Source of the DNA: Prasinococcaceae sp. CCMP 1430
Lineage: Eukaryota; Prasinodermophyta; Palmophyllophyceae; Prasinococcales; Prasinococcaceae
Length of the DNA stretch: 33,045 nucleotides
Direction of reading: 5' to 3'
NCBI GenBank assembly: GCA_013416795.1
Contig: RQSC01000017.1
Span: 1 to 33,045, forward strand
The translations under genes and the position numbers were made by a program. Shown here in pieces: positions 1 through 8,532 of the stretch. The notes under the pieces were generated by a model. The model saw only the letters and a list, made by a program, of their open reading frames with translations, was not told the DNA's origin and did no database searches. Every line of letters starts with the position of its first letter. Positions within the stretch are counted from its first letter, which is position 1.

Positions 1-23
1 CGCGGCGCGCGGCGGCGCGCGGC

Positions 24-2209: not shown

Positions 2210-3486
2210 TCACGAGCGCCGCGAGGACAGCCTGCTGGAACGGCGAGGCGCGACAGCGGAGGCGGCGGCGCCCGCGTTCTTCGCGGCCTTGGCCTTGGCC
2301 GCCCTCCTGGATCTCGCGGCAGCGGTAGGCGAGGCTGCTTCCGCCAGGGCGCTCTGCACGCCCCCAGAGCCACACGGCGCTTCGACGTCGGTGTCGGTGC
2401 ATGAGGCCTCCGCGGAGACCAGGTGCGGGTTGGGCGCGTATGCAAAGTCACATCGCGCGAGTAGCTCGTCCACGTCTGCGCCGTCGTCGCGGCGCATCTG
2501 CGAAACAAAAAGATGCGTCAGGCGCACGCGCGCACGCACGCAAGAGTTAGCGCGTTGCCATGCAGCGAAATGCGGTGAACGCGCGCGAGGGTGGACATGC
2601 TGTCGCGTGCGCGCGCGCGCGCGCGCACCTTGGACGGCGTCTTTCGCGTGCTTCGGCGCACCGGCGTGAGCACGGCCGCAGTGCCCAGCTCGGTGCGTTC
2701 GGAGGCATTCGCGCGGCGCAGCACGAGAGTGCGGCCGCCGCCAATCGGTGAGCGCTCTGGTGAGCCGAAAGACGCCTGGCACGTCTCGGCGCCAGCGTCG
2801 CAGTCGCTCAGGCGCACACGCTGCGGCGTGCCGCTCACATGCCCTGCCATTGGCACGCGCTGCGGCACATTTACGGCCGCCTCGGCGCCATCATCGACAT
2901 CAGAGGTAGGGATCTCATCCTCCCCGGCATCGAAGAGTGGGTTGGTGGGCGTGTTCGCCATCGCGCGCGCCATCTGGGCCGCCGCGTCGACGGGCGTTCC
3001 TGGCTCGCTGTCGCGCACACTGCCGTCGCTAGTCGCAGGGCTGGGCTGCGCGGGCGATGCGCCGCCGCAGTCGCCGAAGTCGGGGAACGCGACGGCGTCG
3101 GCGTCCGTGTTCAGCTCCTCTGCGGCGCCTTCGCGTTGATCGTACGCTGCGCTCGCCACGCTCGCCATCACGCGCGCGAGCGCGTCCACCGCGAGGGGCG
3201 ACTTGAGGCCGCTCGCGTCGGCGCGCGCGGCGTCGCGCGCGCGCTCGGCGAACATCGCCTTGCCGTGCGGCGTCAGCACGCGGCGCGGCCCCCCGCTCTT
3301 GAGCACGCCCGGCGTGCGCGGTGCGGCCTGCGCGGCCTTTCCCAGCGGCGTACGCAGCGCCGTGTGGCGCCCCTCCCCTCCCCGCCCCCCCCCCCTCTCG
3401 CGCGCGTTTTCGTTTTCGTACGCGCCGCGCCGAGCTAACAACACAACGCCCGCACGATGTTTCGAACGCGGGCCGCAGCCCCGCAT
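2210..3486 (-). CDS. CKAP2-like mitotic/microtubule-associated protein (candidate)
   Basis: Two exons: 3486-2629 and 2497-2210. The 131-nt intron (2628-2498) has donor AAG|GTGCGC and acceptor TTTGTTTCGCAG, and joins in phase 0 to give 381 residues. The protein is basic, low in complexity and rich in S/T-P sites such as TPLGK, TPGVLK and LTPHGK near the N-terminus. The junction brings LTPVRRSTR (273-281) close to DELLARCDFAYAPNPHL (296-312). That pairing resembles the TPVRRS and (F/Y)xPN signature of the CKAP2 C-terminal family of spindle proteins. The tail is rich in A, R and S and ends in SSRLSSRRS. The gene is head-to-head with an Aurora kinase, which supports a mitotic role. The ATG at 3486 was chosen because it is in frame and about 60 bp below a TATA-like site; the ATG of MFAER further in is an alternative. 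The family call rests on two short motifs. Confidence 0.55.
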
Positions 3487-3504
3487 GCGCTTTGACGAAG
3501 CCCC
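3481..3504 (-). repeat. Leader element, diverged copy (CKAP2-like gene)
   Basis: In the sense of the CKAP2-like gene this reads GTCAAAGCGCATGCGG, compared with GTCGAAACGCATGCGC in the exact copies. The ATG within it is the start codon chosen for this gene. Confidence 0.45.
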
Positions 3505-3546
3505 ACCACACCACACAACACCAGACCACACCCACCGGCGGCGCAC

Positions 3547-3553
3547 ATATAAA
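3547..3553 (-). promoter_or_regulatory. TATA-like box of the CKAP2-like gene
   Basis: On the minus strand the site reads TTTATAT, about 60 bp upstream of the ATG at 3486, in otherwise GC-rich DNA. A TATA at this distance would put transcription start near 3520, just before the diverged leader-element copy. It could equally serve the plus strand, but Aurora's ATG is 450 bp away. Confidence 0.4.
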
Positions 3554-3721
3554 TGCATGCATAGCTACTGTATGATTTCGATTGTGATTTTGATTTTGAT
3601 TTTGATTTGATTTCGATGGAAAAGCGCCTCAAACAAATTGGGGCGCGCGCGCGATTTCCCCACACACACACACACGCCAAAAAAAAAAAAAAAGAGTCGT
3701 TGGATCGTCCCCCCGACTGCC

Positions 3722-3741
3722 CAGGTCGAAACGCATGCGCG
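3722..3741 (+). repeat. Leader element, exact copy upstream of Aurora
   Basis: The 20-mer CAGGTCGAAACGCATGCGCG lies about 270 bp upstream of the Aurora ATG, in the sense orientation. Two identical copies precede the aldolase gene. Three perfect 20-base matches in 33 kb are far beyond chance. Confidence 0.75.
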
Positions 3742-4009
3742 CGGGGGCGCGCGCGCGGCCGCCGGGCTCGAGACGCAGGCGAGACGCGCGCGGGGCGGAG
3801 AGGCGACCTCGCGCGTGGCCTGGGCGGCTGAGGGGGAGGAGGGGAAGGGGAGAGGGGGCTGGAGCCGCGGGGGAAAGGTTGCGGCAGCCGGGCGGGTGGC
3901 CGAGCGGTGGCGGCGCTCGCGGCGTGGGCGCTCGCACAGGCGGGCGCGGGCGTAAGCGCGAGCGGGCCTGGGGGGTGGGGAGTCGGGGAAGGTGCGGGCG
4001 GGCACAAGG

Positions 4010-5294
4010 ATGGCCGAGGTTGGCAAGGAGAACGCCACGCCGTCGCAGGCAAACGTCGCGGCGGCGGGGGGCGTCGCGGCGGTGACGGGCAAGGCGGGAT
4101 TGCAGGCGCGGCCGCAGTCGGCGTCGCAGGCGACGACGGCGACCGCCGCACAGCAGCAGCAGCAGCATGAGGAGCGCCGCTGGACGCTCGCCGACTTCGA
4201 CATCGGCAAACCTCTGGGGCGCGGCAAGTTCGGCAATGTGTACCTTGCGCGCGAGAAGCGCTCCAAGTACATCGTCGCCCTCAAGGTGCTCTTCAAGGCG
4301 CAGCTGCAGCAGTCGCACGTCGAGCACCAGCTGCGCCGCGAGATCGAGATCCAGAGCCACCTGCGCCACCCCAACATCCTGCGGCTCTTCGGCTACTTCT
4401 ACGACGCCACGCGCGTGTACCTCATCCTGGAGTTCGCCGGCAAGGTGCGAGCGTGCGCTCGGCGGCGCGAGTCGCCCTTTGTTCGCTGGCTCCGCGTGGC
4501 GCCCACGCGCGCCTCGCGAGTGCCCCATTGGCGGTGACGGACCGCGCAACTGACGCCCCAACCTGCGACGCATCACGCCCGCATCACCTACTGCGTTCGT
4601 GCGCGCGTGCAGGGCGAGCTGTACAAGGAGCTCCAGCGGCGAGAGCGCTTCGACGAGCGCAGGTCGGCCACGTACGTTGCGAGCCTGGCCAAGGCGCTCA
4701 AGTACTGCCACTCCAAGCACGTCATCCACAGAGACATCAGTGAGTGCGCGCGCTACGACCCAGGCGCGCGCACGCGCCACGCCGCGCGCACTCATCCATT
4801 TTATCGCGCTCCCTGCCGTCACTGTGTATCGCTGACCGTGCACCGCACCAATCGTGCCATCGCGCCTAACCGTGCTTGCAGAACCGGAGAACCTGCTGCT
4901 GGGCATCAAGGGGGAGCTCAAGATCGCGGACTTCGGTTGGTCCATCCACGCGCCCAACTCGAGGCGGCAGACGCTCTGTGGCACGCTGGACTACCTGCCG
5001 CCGGAGATGGTGGAGGGAAAGGACCATGACGAGGCGGTCGATATCTGGTCGCTCGGCGTGCTGTGCTACGAGTTTCTTGTGGGAACACCCCCCTTCGAGG
5101 CGGCTGGTCACACCGAGACCTACAAGCGCATCCTGCGCGTGTCGTACGAATTCCCTGACCACGTCAGCGACGGTGCGCGCGACCTCATCCGCAAGCTGCT
5201 GGTGAGGGATCCGAAGGCCAGGCTGGACCTCGAGAAGGTCGCTGACCATCCGTGGATCGTCGCCAACGCGGATCCCACTGGTGCGGTGGTGTGA
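4010..5294 (+). CDS. AUR: Aurora-type mitotic serine/threonine kinase
   Basis: Three exons: 4010-4444, 4613-4739 and 4882-5294. Introns 4445-4612 (AAG|GTGCGA...TGCAG) and 4740-4881 (GTGAGT...TTGCAG) join to give 324 residues; the second split codon restores HRDIKPENLL. The glycine loop GRGKFG is at 70-75, the ATP lysine K92 lies in VALKV, the HRD motif is at 184-186 and DFGWS at 204-208. The activation segment [15 protein letters not shown] places T218 where human Aurora A has its activating T288. DFGWS and this segment are Aurora hallmarks. The N-terminus carries a KEN box (residues 6-8), a known APC/C-Cdh1 degron in cell-cycle kinases, and a Q5 run. The ATG at 4010 is the first ATG in this frame. 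Aurora kinases control spindle and chromosome segregation; whether this one is A-, B-, alpha- or beta-like cannot be decided here. Confidence 0.95.
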
Positions 5295-5572
5295 GCAGCG
5301 CCACCCTGTCATTGCTGATCGCGCACCTTCGTGGAAGCCCGCTGCTTGCATGCTCACGACCTGCTCGCCCTTCTAGTCCCTCCTCCAAGAACCTGCGTGG
5401 GCGTGCGCTCAGACGCCGGATCGAGTAATGAAAAGCCCGGTCTTTGTACAGAGCTCGCCCCGGCGCAGCCCATTCGCGACGCGACGAATGTCGCACGCCG
5501 TACACACCTCTCCTGCTAAGGCTACGCCATTTACAACAACGCACAAAGGTCGACGCCCCTCGCCGGTCGTCA

Positions 5573-7033
5573 TCATGAGTTGACGTCCCAGTTGTACGTC
5601 CTGTACTTCACCTTGTACTTGCCACCCGCAACCAGCGCCTTGAGTTTCTTCTGTTTGTCCTCGTCAGCGAAGCCGGCGAGCCACAGCAGCTTCTCGTCAT
5701 CGTTCGCCCCGAAATCCACCGCGTACCACGTGAGCAGCTTGGAGAGCGTCACGGTCCGTTTGGCCTCGTCCACCTCGACCTCGCCGTCGACATGCGCAGC
5801 CGTGGCCGAGTCGAGCGCCTCATCGATATTTTCGGGGGTATACACGCGGATGGGCGGGCATGACTTGGCGCCGCACACGAGCGCGAAGTGGATTCGCGGG
5901 TCGGCCGGCGGGCACGCGATGAAGCGGCGCGGGTCGCTGGAGCCAAATGGGCGCCTGCCGAAGACAGCAGTCGCCACCGGCCGGTTGCCGCGCAGCACGC
6001 CGTTCTCGATTTCGTCGGGCGTGTAGAGGTCGCCGCCGATGCAGTACTGTGTGGTGGAAAACATCTTCAGGCGCGACAGCAGGTTGCTGGGCTCGCCCTT
6101 GGCCGCAATGATGTGCACGATGAGCGCGTTGTACACGTTGATGAAGAACGCCTTCCGCTGGGCGACGCTCAGACCGAAGAGGTCCACGTTCTGAAGCTCG
6201 GCCGAGGCCGCGACGTACGACTTGTAGATGTCGCTCTTGCGCAGCTTGGCGTAGTCGACCTTGCGCCCGCCGTCGGAGAGCGCGGCGTCATACATGGCGA
6301 CAATGGCGCGACGAAGCTCCTCCGCGACCACCGCCGCGGGGCGCGCGGGGCGCGTCCATTTGTAGGCGCCGTTGATCACGCCCGACGGGTAAGGGCGAGG
6401 CTCGTCCTTGTGCAGGCGGTACCTGTGGTCGCTGCCCGCCTTGTCGAGCACCGCGTCGGAGAAGCTCTCGTGGTGCACGAGCCGCGCTGCTGCCAGCTGC
6501 CGCGCGAGCAGCAGCGCGCGGCCGCGGTCGATCTTCTGGCGCTGGGCGATGGCAGACACCAGCGCCTTGCCCGAGAAGTAGCCGTGGTCGCCCTTCGGTA
6601 GAACCTTGCTGTCCTCCAGCGCGGCCGCGAGAGGCTCGAGCAGCTCGTAGTCGTGCGCTGGCGCCGCGGCCTGCGCGGCGCTGGCGGCCTCGACCGCCTT
6701 CTGCGAGTCCGCTTTGGGCGCCGCCGCGTGCAGGGCGGCGGCCTTGAGGACCATCGGCATCTCGGGCGGATCGCTCGCGTCGAGCAGCGGCTTGAGGCCG
6801 TCCTTCTCGAGCAGCGCGTCCAGGTCGTCCGCGCCGCCCACATACGCGCCGTTCACGTAGATCTGCGGCACGGTGCGCTTGCCTGTTTCCTCTCGCAGCG
6901 CCCTGACGAGCCCTGCGTCCTCGCCGACGTTGACGTCGACGAACGGCACATCCAGCTCCGCGAGCTTCGCCTTGGCGCGCTTGCAGAACGGGCACGCCGA
7001 CGTGCCGAACACGACCGCCGGCGGCAGCGCCAT
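5573..7033 (-). CDS. Glutaredoxin-DEP-DUF547 fusion protein
   Basis: From the ATG at 7033 the protein has 486 residues. The N-terminal glutaredoxin has active site CPFC at 14-17, a TVP cis-proline loop and GGADDL. A DEP-like domain spans about 128-213. A DUF547 domain spans about 290-410 and includes FFINVYNALIVHIIA and HFALVCGAKSCPPIRVY. This order is known as a class of glutaredoxins in photosynthetic organisms; its in vivo role is not settled. The frame stays open for 48 codons upstream of the ATG and reads like a basic, Ala-rich targeting peptide (LRRDAKARHRLQVRAAAP). It contains no ATG before the stop at 7178-7180, so an upstream exon would be needed to use it. The gene lies only 168 bp downstream of the aldolase stop on the same strand. 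TGTAA occurs on the minus strand about 40 bp past the stop (5531-5535). Confidence 0.9.
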   Translation of the reverse strand: MALPPAVVFGTSACPFCKRAKAKLAELDVPFVDVNVGEDAGLVRALREETGKRTVPQIYVNGAYVGGADDLDALLEKDGLKPLLDASDPPEMPMVLKAAALHAAAPKADSQKAVEAASAAQAAAPAHDYELLEPLAAALEDSKVLPKGDHGYFSGKALVSAIAQRQKIDRGRALLLARQLAAARLVHHESFSDAVLDKAGSDHRYRLHKDEPRPYPSGVINGAYKWTRPARPAAVVAEELRRAIVAMYDAALSDGGRKVDYAKLRKSDIYKSYVAASAELQNVDLFGLSVAQRKAFFINVYNALIVHIIAAKGEPSNLLSRLKMFSTTQYCIGGDLYTPDEIENGVLRGNRPVATAVFGRRPFGSSDPRRFIACPPADPRIHFALVCGAKSCPPIRVYTPENIDEALDSATAAHVDGEVEVDEAKRTVTLSKLLTWYAVDFGANDDEKLLWLAGFADEDKQKKLKALVAGGKYKVKYRTYNWDVNS

Positions 7034-7201
7034 CGCGGCCGGCGCAGCAGGCGCCGCCGCCCGAACCTGGAGGCGGTGGCGAGCTTTGGCATCTCGCCTG
7101 AGAACGCCTTCGGCTAGGAGCAGCGGCGCCGATGGCAACACTTGCAGCGGCTGGCGGCCTGAGGGCAGCGCTGCCGTTTACGTGCGCGCGCTGCGAGGCG
7201 C

Positions 7202-8382
7202 TCACGCCATGACCTTCTCCTCGACGACGGCGACGTGATCGCCATCCGTCGGCCCCTCCCGCTCATAGGTGCCCATTGCCGCAGCTCCCGCGATCTTGAG
7301 CTCCGCCAGGTAAAGCGCCTCCATGGCGGGCAGCTGCAGCTCGCCGTGGCCGCGGCAGAGCTCGAAGAGAGGCATCTGCAGGGCTGCGGACCACGAGAAG
7401 CTGATGTTCCACGGGTCGCGCGAGGTCTTGGCCTTGTTGATGGCAGACAGCCGCGCGGCAGCGTCGGCGAGCGACTGGCCGCCCGAGAGGTAGTTCAGGC
7501 CAGGCATGGCCGTAGGGAAGCACCTGCGCAGGACGTCGAGGTTTGCCTGGGCGATCTCCTCGACGCTGTAGCCCGTCGCGCAGTCGCGCCCCGGGTTGAT
7601 GATGTTGGGCTTGAGGGTGGAGCCCTCCATGTACACGCCGTGGTCGAGCATCGCCTTGTAGAGCTCCGACTGGATCTTCACGTTGATGTAGACGGCGTCC
7701 TCCAGGGTGTGGTCGCCCTTGAGCGAGACGTCGGGCTCGACGATGGGCATGAGGCCCTCCTGCTGGCAGATGAGCGCGTACCGCGCGAGGTCGCGCATGT
7801 TGCACTCGATGACCAGGTCCGACGGCTGGCCGTTGGACATGTCAATCTCGATGGGAGAGCGCCACTTGGCGAAGCGGCAGCCCGCGGCGTAGTACTCGGC
7901 ACAGCGCACGGCGAGCGAGTCGAGTCCCTGCATGACGGTCGCACCGTCCTGTCCGGGCAGCGAGTAGACCTTCAGGTGGGGCTTGACGCCGGGCACGATG
8001 CCGAGCTCGGAGAGCACCTCCGGGAAGAGCTTGCCAGCAAACTTCTCGCTGTCCGACTTCTGGTAGAGCGTCTCTGGGTCGAGAATGGCCTAGAAAACGG
8101 CGCAGCGGCCTGTCAGCGCTGCGTGCATACCAAGGCAGCATAGGTGCGCTGTCAGCACCCATCGCTAGCGTCACGTACCGCGGACAGGAAGTCCGCCGCG
8201 CCGGGAGCCTCGAAGAGCATCTGCCTGTACGCGCGGCGGTTCTCCTCTGTGTTCTCCACGCCGACATTCTCGAAGCGCGCGCCGATGGTCCACGGCCCCT
8301 CGTCGCAAGCGGTGATGCCTTTACCCTCGCGAGCGACCAGCTCAGCGGTCTCCTTGAGCTCCGCCTTGCGCTCCGCCGACAG
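7202..8382 (-). CDS. FBA: Fructose-bisphosphate aldolase, class I
   Basis: This enzyme cleaves fructose 1,6-bisphosphate into two triose phosphates through a Schiff base, in glycolysis or the Calvin cycle. The exons are about 8382-8179 and 8089-7202. The 89-nt intron (8178-8090) has donor GTACGT and acceptor TTTTCTAG and joins in phase 0. Family motifs are ACDEG (active-site Asp), VENTEENRRAYRQML, AKWRSPIEI (Lys equivalent to K146 of rabbit aldolase) and STLKPNIINPG (Schiff-base Lys equivalent to K229). The C-terminus ends EEKVMA and lacks the terminal Tyr of animal aldolases. The 5' end is unresolved. The conserved region begins at LSAERKAEL near 8382 and the frame stays open to about 8604, but no ATG lies in it. 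The only ATGs nearby (8519, 8510, 8489) are inside or next to the leader-element repeats, in another frame. A short upstream exon or a non-ATG start is implied. Confidence 0.92.
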
Positions 8383-8482
8383 GTGCGCGCCGTTGTGGCA
8401 CGCGAGCAGTGTCGCGCGCGGCGCCGCGCGGCGCGGCGCCGAGTCCCCTGCGCGCCCCGCAACAGCCGCGCCCCACGTCCGC

Positions 8483-8502
8483 CGCGCATGCGTTTCGACC
8501 TG
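8483..8502 (-). repeat. Leader element, aldolase proximal copy
   Basis: Minus-strand CAGGTCGAAACGCATGCGCG, preceded by GGGGCG. It is identical to the copies at 8513-8532 and 3722-3741. Confidence 0.75.
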
Positions 8503-8512
8503 CGCCCCATCC

Positions 8513-8532
8513 CGCGCATGCGTTTCGACCTG
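8513..8532 (-). repeat. Leader element, aldolase distal copy
   Basis: Second minus-strand copy, exactly 30 bp upstream of the first. The pair forms a short direct repeat of about 26 matching bases, including the preceding GGGGCG. Confidence 0.75.

Follow-up and report, generated by a model that had tools for sequence, protein, structure and literature searches.

A 17-bp bipartite sequence element in the promoters of MCM and other genes of the alga Prasinococcaceae sp. CCMP 1430

Introduction

What is the role of a 20-base sequence that recurs near the 5′ ends of genes in a single stretch of algal DNA? The stretch, 33,045 nucleotides from Prasinococcaceae sp. CCMP 1430 (GenBank assembly GCA_013416795.1, contig RQSC01000017.1, positions 1 to 33,045 of the forward strand), is referred to here as the window, and the sequence, CAGGTCGAAACGCATGCGCG, lies ahead of an Aurora kinase gene and of a class I fructose-bisphosphate aldolase gene. 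An earlier note, made from the letters of the window alone, had placed copies at the 5′ ends of three genes, always in the sense direction, and had offered a core-promoter element, a 5′-leader motif, a source of upstream start codons or a dispersed genomic repeat as explanations.

Here, we describe the distribution of this element across the assembly, the genes that it flanks and the explanations that it allows. Because six of the eight MCM genes have it upstream, we consider a transcription-factor site that switches on DNA-copying and division genes together to be its most likely role. We give a probability of about 0.72 to the motif being a DNA-level binding site that would act beside E2F in a promoter programme for S phase and division. 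The co-activation of replication genes has been well worked out in yeast and animals and poorly in unicellular algae. A 17-bp element at five of the six MCM2-7 genes, with arrays spaced by three helical turns and E2F sites, would offer a handle on the protein behind a second arm of the G1/S switch in algae and on that arm itself, and it would allow a test of whether this switch also controls the genes for plastid division and peptidoglycan ligase.

The motif in the window and in the genome

Across the window, the 20-mer occurs exactly at 3722-3741 (+), 8483-8502 (-) and 8513-8532 (-), and no further place lies within three mismatches of it; shuffles of the window give a mean of 0.02 matches. 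With a diverged copy, GTCAAAGCGCATGCGG, at 3481-3496 (-), the repetition reported in the earlier note is therefore real. Because the two aldolase copies belong to a 30-bp tandem duplication that is nearly exact, they do not count as fully independent. The palindromic core CGCATGCG, taken alone, is only mildly over-represented in the window (10 occurrences, 4.4 expected), and the signal is thus carried by the left half, RTCRAAR. A weight matrix built from relatives scores the four window copies at 24.7-28.4 bits and every other place in the window at 12.3 bits or less.

The search was extended to the window's own assembly (24.5 Mb), with the reversed sequence as a control. The sequence GTCGAAACGCATGCG has 14 matches against 0 in the control, the core TCRAARCGCATGCGS has 74 exact matches against 1, and GTCRAARCGCATGCG with up to two mismatches has 1303 against 381. 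An alignment of 51 distinct copies shows that the window 20-mers are instances of a genome-wide motif of ~17 bp, [AC][GC]RTCRAARCGCATGCG, in which an asymmetric RTCRAAR arm is joined to the palindromic CGCATGCG. In this alignment, the flanks carry no information beyond motif positions -3..13, and no co-motif at a fixed spacing was found within 40 bp. The motif is, as a binding site would be, a short, degenerate and non-extending sequence that is over-represented genome-wide.

Perfect sites number about 100 in the assembly, and about 63 of them were examined in their genomic context. Loci (L numbers) and contigs (C numbers) carry our own labels. L003 and L008 are the same sequence on two contigs and were counted once. 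These two (on C44 and C76), like the SMC matches C76:97372 and C89:332051, have identical flanks or scores on different contigs, and are either the product of recent duplication or haplotypes that the assembly left uncollapsed.

The motif upstream of MCM genes

All MCM genes were located, so that their link to the motif could be tested without selection bias. The genome has eight clear MCM genes, and a perfect motif lies upstream of six (five of MCM2-7, and MCM8), where ~0.07 would be expected. The binomial probability of this outcome is about 8e-12 at ~100 sites per genome, and still about 2e-9 if each gene is given a generous chance of 2%. The copies stand 1.1-1.8 kb before the P-loop domain, which places them near the 5′ end of the gene. 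Family and sequence scans identified MCM7, MCM4 and MCM8; we infer the names MCM2, MCM5 and MCM6 from reading the N-terminal sequence, and that of MCM3 by elimination.

The flanking coding segments were identified by Pfam, PDB-sequence and NCBIfam scans. A STAG cohesin subunit gene flanks the motif divergently from MCM4, and a gene for an RBBP4/CAF-1 subunit (CAF1C) does so divergently from MCM7. Other flanking genes encode a Toprim/DnaB Twinkle-like protein, MinE, MurC, an ERCC6/CSB-like SNF2 protein and the Aurora kinase. The genes near the motif include plastid-type ones, namely MinE, DXS and a nuclear MurC-like ligase; with the plant-type AAACCCTA box near the sites, they point to a green alga. 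The MurC-like gene, of which the locus holds only a part (L013:1874-3013, +), resembles UDP-N-acetylmuramate--L-alanine ligase with a score under the family cut-off, and a motif pair spaced by 30 bp precedes it; it suggests that plastid peptidoglycan genes are tied to the cell cycle. Some Micromonas and Dolichomastix are known to have genes of the peptidoglycan pathway (PMC4815162). Genes for MCM, cohesion, mismatch repair and plastid division peak together in Ostreococcus tauri, as one S-phase cluster (PMC2850359), and the mix of genes near the motif fits that cluster. The interpretation offered in the earlier note has stood up in part, and the link to DNA-replication genes had not been foreseen in it.

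Location and orientation relative to genes

Gene calls came from a codon-usage model whose training set was the genes of the window with Pfam support; after refinement with the fetched loci, it recovers the known genes of the window. Predicted coding DNA holds 2 of the 63 motif sites, compared with ~72% of random positions in the window and 15 control loci (p about 2e-31). Fifty-one sites fall in fully called intergenic regions: 34 between divergent genes, 11 in tandem regions in the sense direction, 4 in tandem regions in antisense and 2 between convergent genes. For random intergenic positions in the window, the divergent fraction is 27 of 87 (p about 8e-5). The concentration upstream of genes and the depletion in coding DNA, both again as for a binding site, extend to the whole genome what had been claimed from the window, namely a place in promoter regions and an avoidance of gene bodies.

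The claim that copies always point with transcription does not survive. The tandem sites favour sense by 11 to 4 (p=0.12) and the divergent ones point to the nearer gene in 18 cases and to the farther gene in 16, so that no more than a weak tendency is left of the rule; in the promoters of MCM2 and MCM4, arrays even alternate in orientation. Nor is the position fixed, the distance to coding sequence ranging from 5 to 1197 bp with a median of about 420. Of 50 motif ATGs, 15 share the frame of the coding segment that follows, where chance gives one in three, and the frame is open in 3, which speaks against the proposed use of this ATG as an upstream start codon. A start-codon or Kozak-type element was rejected because the frame is random and the position relative to coding sequence varies, and a TATA-anchored core element because the TATAAA of the window faces the other gene and no co-motif within 40 bp has a fixed spacing. 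Free orientation and variable distance likewise disfavour the 5′-leader RNA motif and any core-promoter element of fixed position.

Arrays and spacing

Several promoters carry at least two copies. Nine pairs at six loci (L005, L013, L049, L012, L015 and L090) are spaced 27-30 bp from 17-mer to 17-mer, which is close to three turns of DNA, and arrays of alternating orientation occur at L012 and L015. Upstream of MCM2, the copies run +,-,+ at spacings of 29 and 29 bp; between MCM4 and the STAG gene, they run -,+,- at 29 and 27 bp. Since the orientations alternate, simple tandem duplication cannot yield these two arrays. The direct-repeat pairs at the aldolase gene and at the MurC-like gene (30 bp each) may be duplications. 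Upstream of the presumed MCM3 (L095, C75:113000-114600), copies at 428, 555, 683 and 796 follow a tandem unit of ~127 bp, and the element appears to have been amplified there as a minisatellite. At about 1300-1570 of L050, the variants TCAAAACGCACGCG, CGAAACGCATGCG and TCAAAACGCATGCG are densely packed with a period of 57 bp.

E2F sites and E2F-related genes

The exact E2F/DP consensus TTTSSCGC lies about 10-106 bp from the motif in the promoters of MCM2, MCM3, MCM6 and MCM7, four of the six that bear the motif. Over the whole set, the consensus is modestly enriched near the motif (0.44 against 0.23 per kb). Up to 250 bp from the motif, the sequence CGGGAAAA shows enrichment, and ACGCGT is not enriched near it. 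E2F/DP-type genes occur at four places in the genome and paired-CXC genes at two (C22 and C144).

Two genes, at C104:17632-18363 and C43:510054-510728, are atypical E2F-like genes with two DNA-binding domains each, of the E2F7/8 or DEL type. In the fetched loci, the plant telo-box AAACCCTA occurs at 0.34 per kb within 200 bp of the motif and at 0.02 per kb farther off; the MCM5 promoter (L092), which lacks the motif, carries it too.

Proposed mechanism and points against it

We propose that a bipartite, double-stranded element of ~17 bp in promoters would be bound, in either orientation, by a sequence-specific factor or factor complex. Neighbouring copies ~27-30 bp apart, roughly three helical turns, would align the bound proteins on one face of the DNA, where they could cooperate. 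Together with nearby E2F/DP sites, the element may co-regulate a programme of S phase and division whose targets would be MCM helicase subunits, cohesin and chromatin-assembly subunits, organelle DNA replication, plastid division and Aurora kinase. We infer protein binding, timed transcription and cooperative binding. A bolder version, which we put forward tentatively and hold to be possible without being probable, is that the motif is a lineage-specific S-phase master element that was added, with an unrecognised DNA-binding protein, to the ancestral E2F network; it would keep the replication of nuclear DNA (MCM2-4, 6-8, cohesin, CAF-1) in step with that of organelle DNA and with the division of plastids (Twinkle-like, MinE, MurC).

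Several points weigh against a binding site with this function. No copy was found in the stretch read upstream of MCM5 and of the eighth MCM gene, probably MCM9. Six SMC-family N-terminal regions, considered as further members of the regulon, were rejected, none having a perfect copy within 2 kb, in a search that can miss weak matches. Given these absences, the motif is not on every S-phase, mitotic or chromosome gene. Many flanking genes, metabolic and housekeeping ones among them, are not obviously related to the cell cycle (aldolase, DXS, ribose-5-phosphate isomerase, ClpB, an asparagine-synthase-like gene and COG2). The gene starts and introns of the codon model are predictions, not annotation, and several of the pairs at 28-30 bp could be tandem duplications and not a selected spacing.

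Alternative explanations

The closest rival holds that the site is of the CHR/CLE type and that a LIN54/TCX-like CXC protein recognises it as part of a DREAM-like E2F complex, with the other strand presenting TTTYGAY beside E2F sites. The reverse complement CGCATGCGYTTYGAY does resemble the CLE of CDC45, CTTGAC (PMC5716687), and the non-canonical CHR sequences TTTGAT and TTCGAT (PMC4974476), and both the paired-CXC and E2F/DP-type genes and the E2F sites of the four MCM promoters would suit it. But the LIN54 consensus TTYRAA (PMC4974476) needs a final A, and none of 90 sites has one (C, T or G stands instead). The human CLE, moreover, lies 4 nt from its E2F site, a spacing that is wider and variable here, and the invariant CGCATGCG half finds no explanation. 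We therefore regard this rival as rather unlikely. An NRF1-like factor would account for that very half, around which the NRF1 palindrome GCGCATGCGC is built, and for the GC-rich divergent promoters, since NRF1 sites favour CpG-rich bidirectional ones. NRF1, however, needs no RTCRAAR arm, and CGCATGCG without the arm is hardly enriched in the window; the family PF10491 had no match in the assembly, but control genomes gave none either. An NRF1 site seems to us highly improbable. The WRKY W-box requires TGAC, and it was dropped because about half of the sites have TCGAC instead.

The strong bias to promoters and divergent regions, and the many flanking genes without a cell-cycle role, could also mark a general housekeeping core-promoter or architectural element of divergent promoters, of which the MCM matches would be a subset. 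This is unlikely in our view: with ~100 perfect sites in the genome, such an element would hardly coincide with six of the eight MCM genes (p no higher than about 2e-9) and with none of six SMC-family regions, and its position relative to coding starts is not fixed. Action at the level of the transcript, as a 5′-leader motif or an upstream start codon, draws on the window, where all four copies can be read as sense and copy 1 has its ATG in the frame of the open reading frame that follows; given the random frame, the lack of orientation preference between divergent genes and the alternating arrays, we give it very little credence. Some copies do stand in tandem arrays (the 127-bp units at MCM3, and L050), as a dispersed repeat, a transposon fragment or chance might produce. 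Yet the 51 copies are dissimilar outside ~17 bp, and since their flanks do not align, the motif is no transposon or longer repeat; with 74 matches against 1 in the control and a location that is not random, this last explanation, raised in the earlier note and checked by the genome-wide search suggested there, is refuted for the motif family as a whole.

Comparison with known elements

Among known elements, the human E2F/CLE and CDE/CHR sites bound by DREAM/MuvB (LIN54) come nearest (PMC5716687, PMC4974476); they share with the motif cell-cycle promoters, adjoining E2F sites and a TTYGA core on one strand. They differ from it in their fixed 4-nt spacing and in lacking the CGCATGCG half, and the motif never matches TTYRAA. 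The canonical E2F/DP site has the same target set (MCM and replication genes), often stands beside the motif and has its E2F/DP genes in the genome, but the motif itself does not contain TTTSSCGC. In the stretches read, MCM5 has the E2F consensus without the motif, whereas MCM4 and MCM8 have the motif without an exact E2F consensus. The fungal MCB and SCB sites (ACGCGT and CACGAAA, bound by MBF and SBF) are analogous in co-regulating G1/S genes through short repeated sites and show a loose resemblance in CGAAACGC, but neither consensus is contained in the motif. To the NRF1 site, the motif adds a required asymmetric arm. The motif thus appears similar to CHR/CLE and NRF1 sites without being either, and would work like a partner element of E2F. 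Literature text searches, with subscription papers outside their reach, returned no paper on AAACGCATGCG and none describing CGCATGCG or GCATGCG as a cell-cycle motif.

Genes around the window copies

The features of the window, which has a GC content of 68%, and the motif-bearing MCM loci are listed in Table 1. Copies 1 and 2 share one divergent intergenic region, so that 'sense' is ambiguous for them. The earlier note had assigned a TATA-like site above copy 1 to the minus-strand gene, but the TATAAA there (3548-3553) lies on the + strand and faces Aurora. The name 'CKAP2-like' given to the minus-strand gene has no Pfam support. The last coding segment of the Aurora gene has Aurora A as its best match.

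Table 1. Coordinates of motif copies and genes in the window, and contigs of the motif-bearing MCM loci
Feature	Coordinates	Strand	Remarks
Motif copy 1	3482..3498	-	TCGTCAAAGCGCATGCG, 24.7 bits; divergent promoter; points to minus-strand gene
Motif copy 2	3723..3739	+	AGGTCGAAACGCATGCG, 28.4 bits; divergent promoter; points to Aurora kinase
Motif copy 3	8485..8501	-	AGGTCGAAACGCATGCG; upstream of class I aldolase; 30 bp from copy 4
Motif copy 4	8515..8531	-	AGGTCGAAACGCATGCG; upstream of class I aldolase
Divergent intergenic region of copies 1 and 2	about 3427..3961		codon model
Divergent partner gene	2551..3426	-	codon model; no Pfam match
Aurora kinase gene	3962..5291	+	coding segments 3962-4447, 4583-4759, 4887-5291; codon model
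Class I fructose-bisphosphate aldolase	7205..8409	-	coding segments 8185-8409, 7205-8089; putative start codon
Motif-bearing MCM loci	C124, C133, C55, C2, C75:115k, C75:757k		perfect copies

Between the Aurora and aldolase genes, at 5576-7039 (-), a glutaredoxin domain and a DUF547 domain are joined within one open frame.

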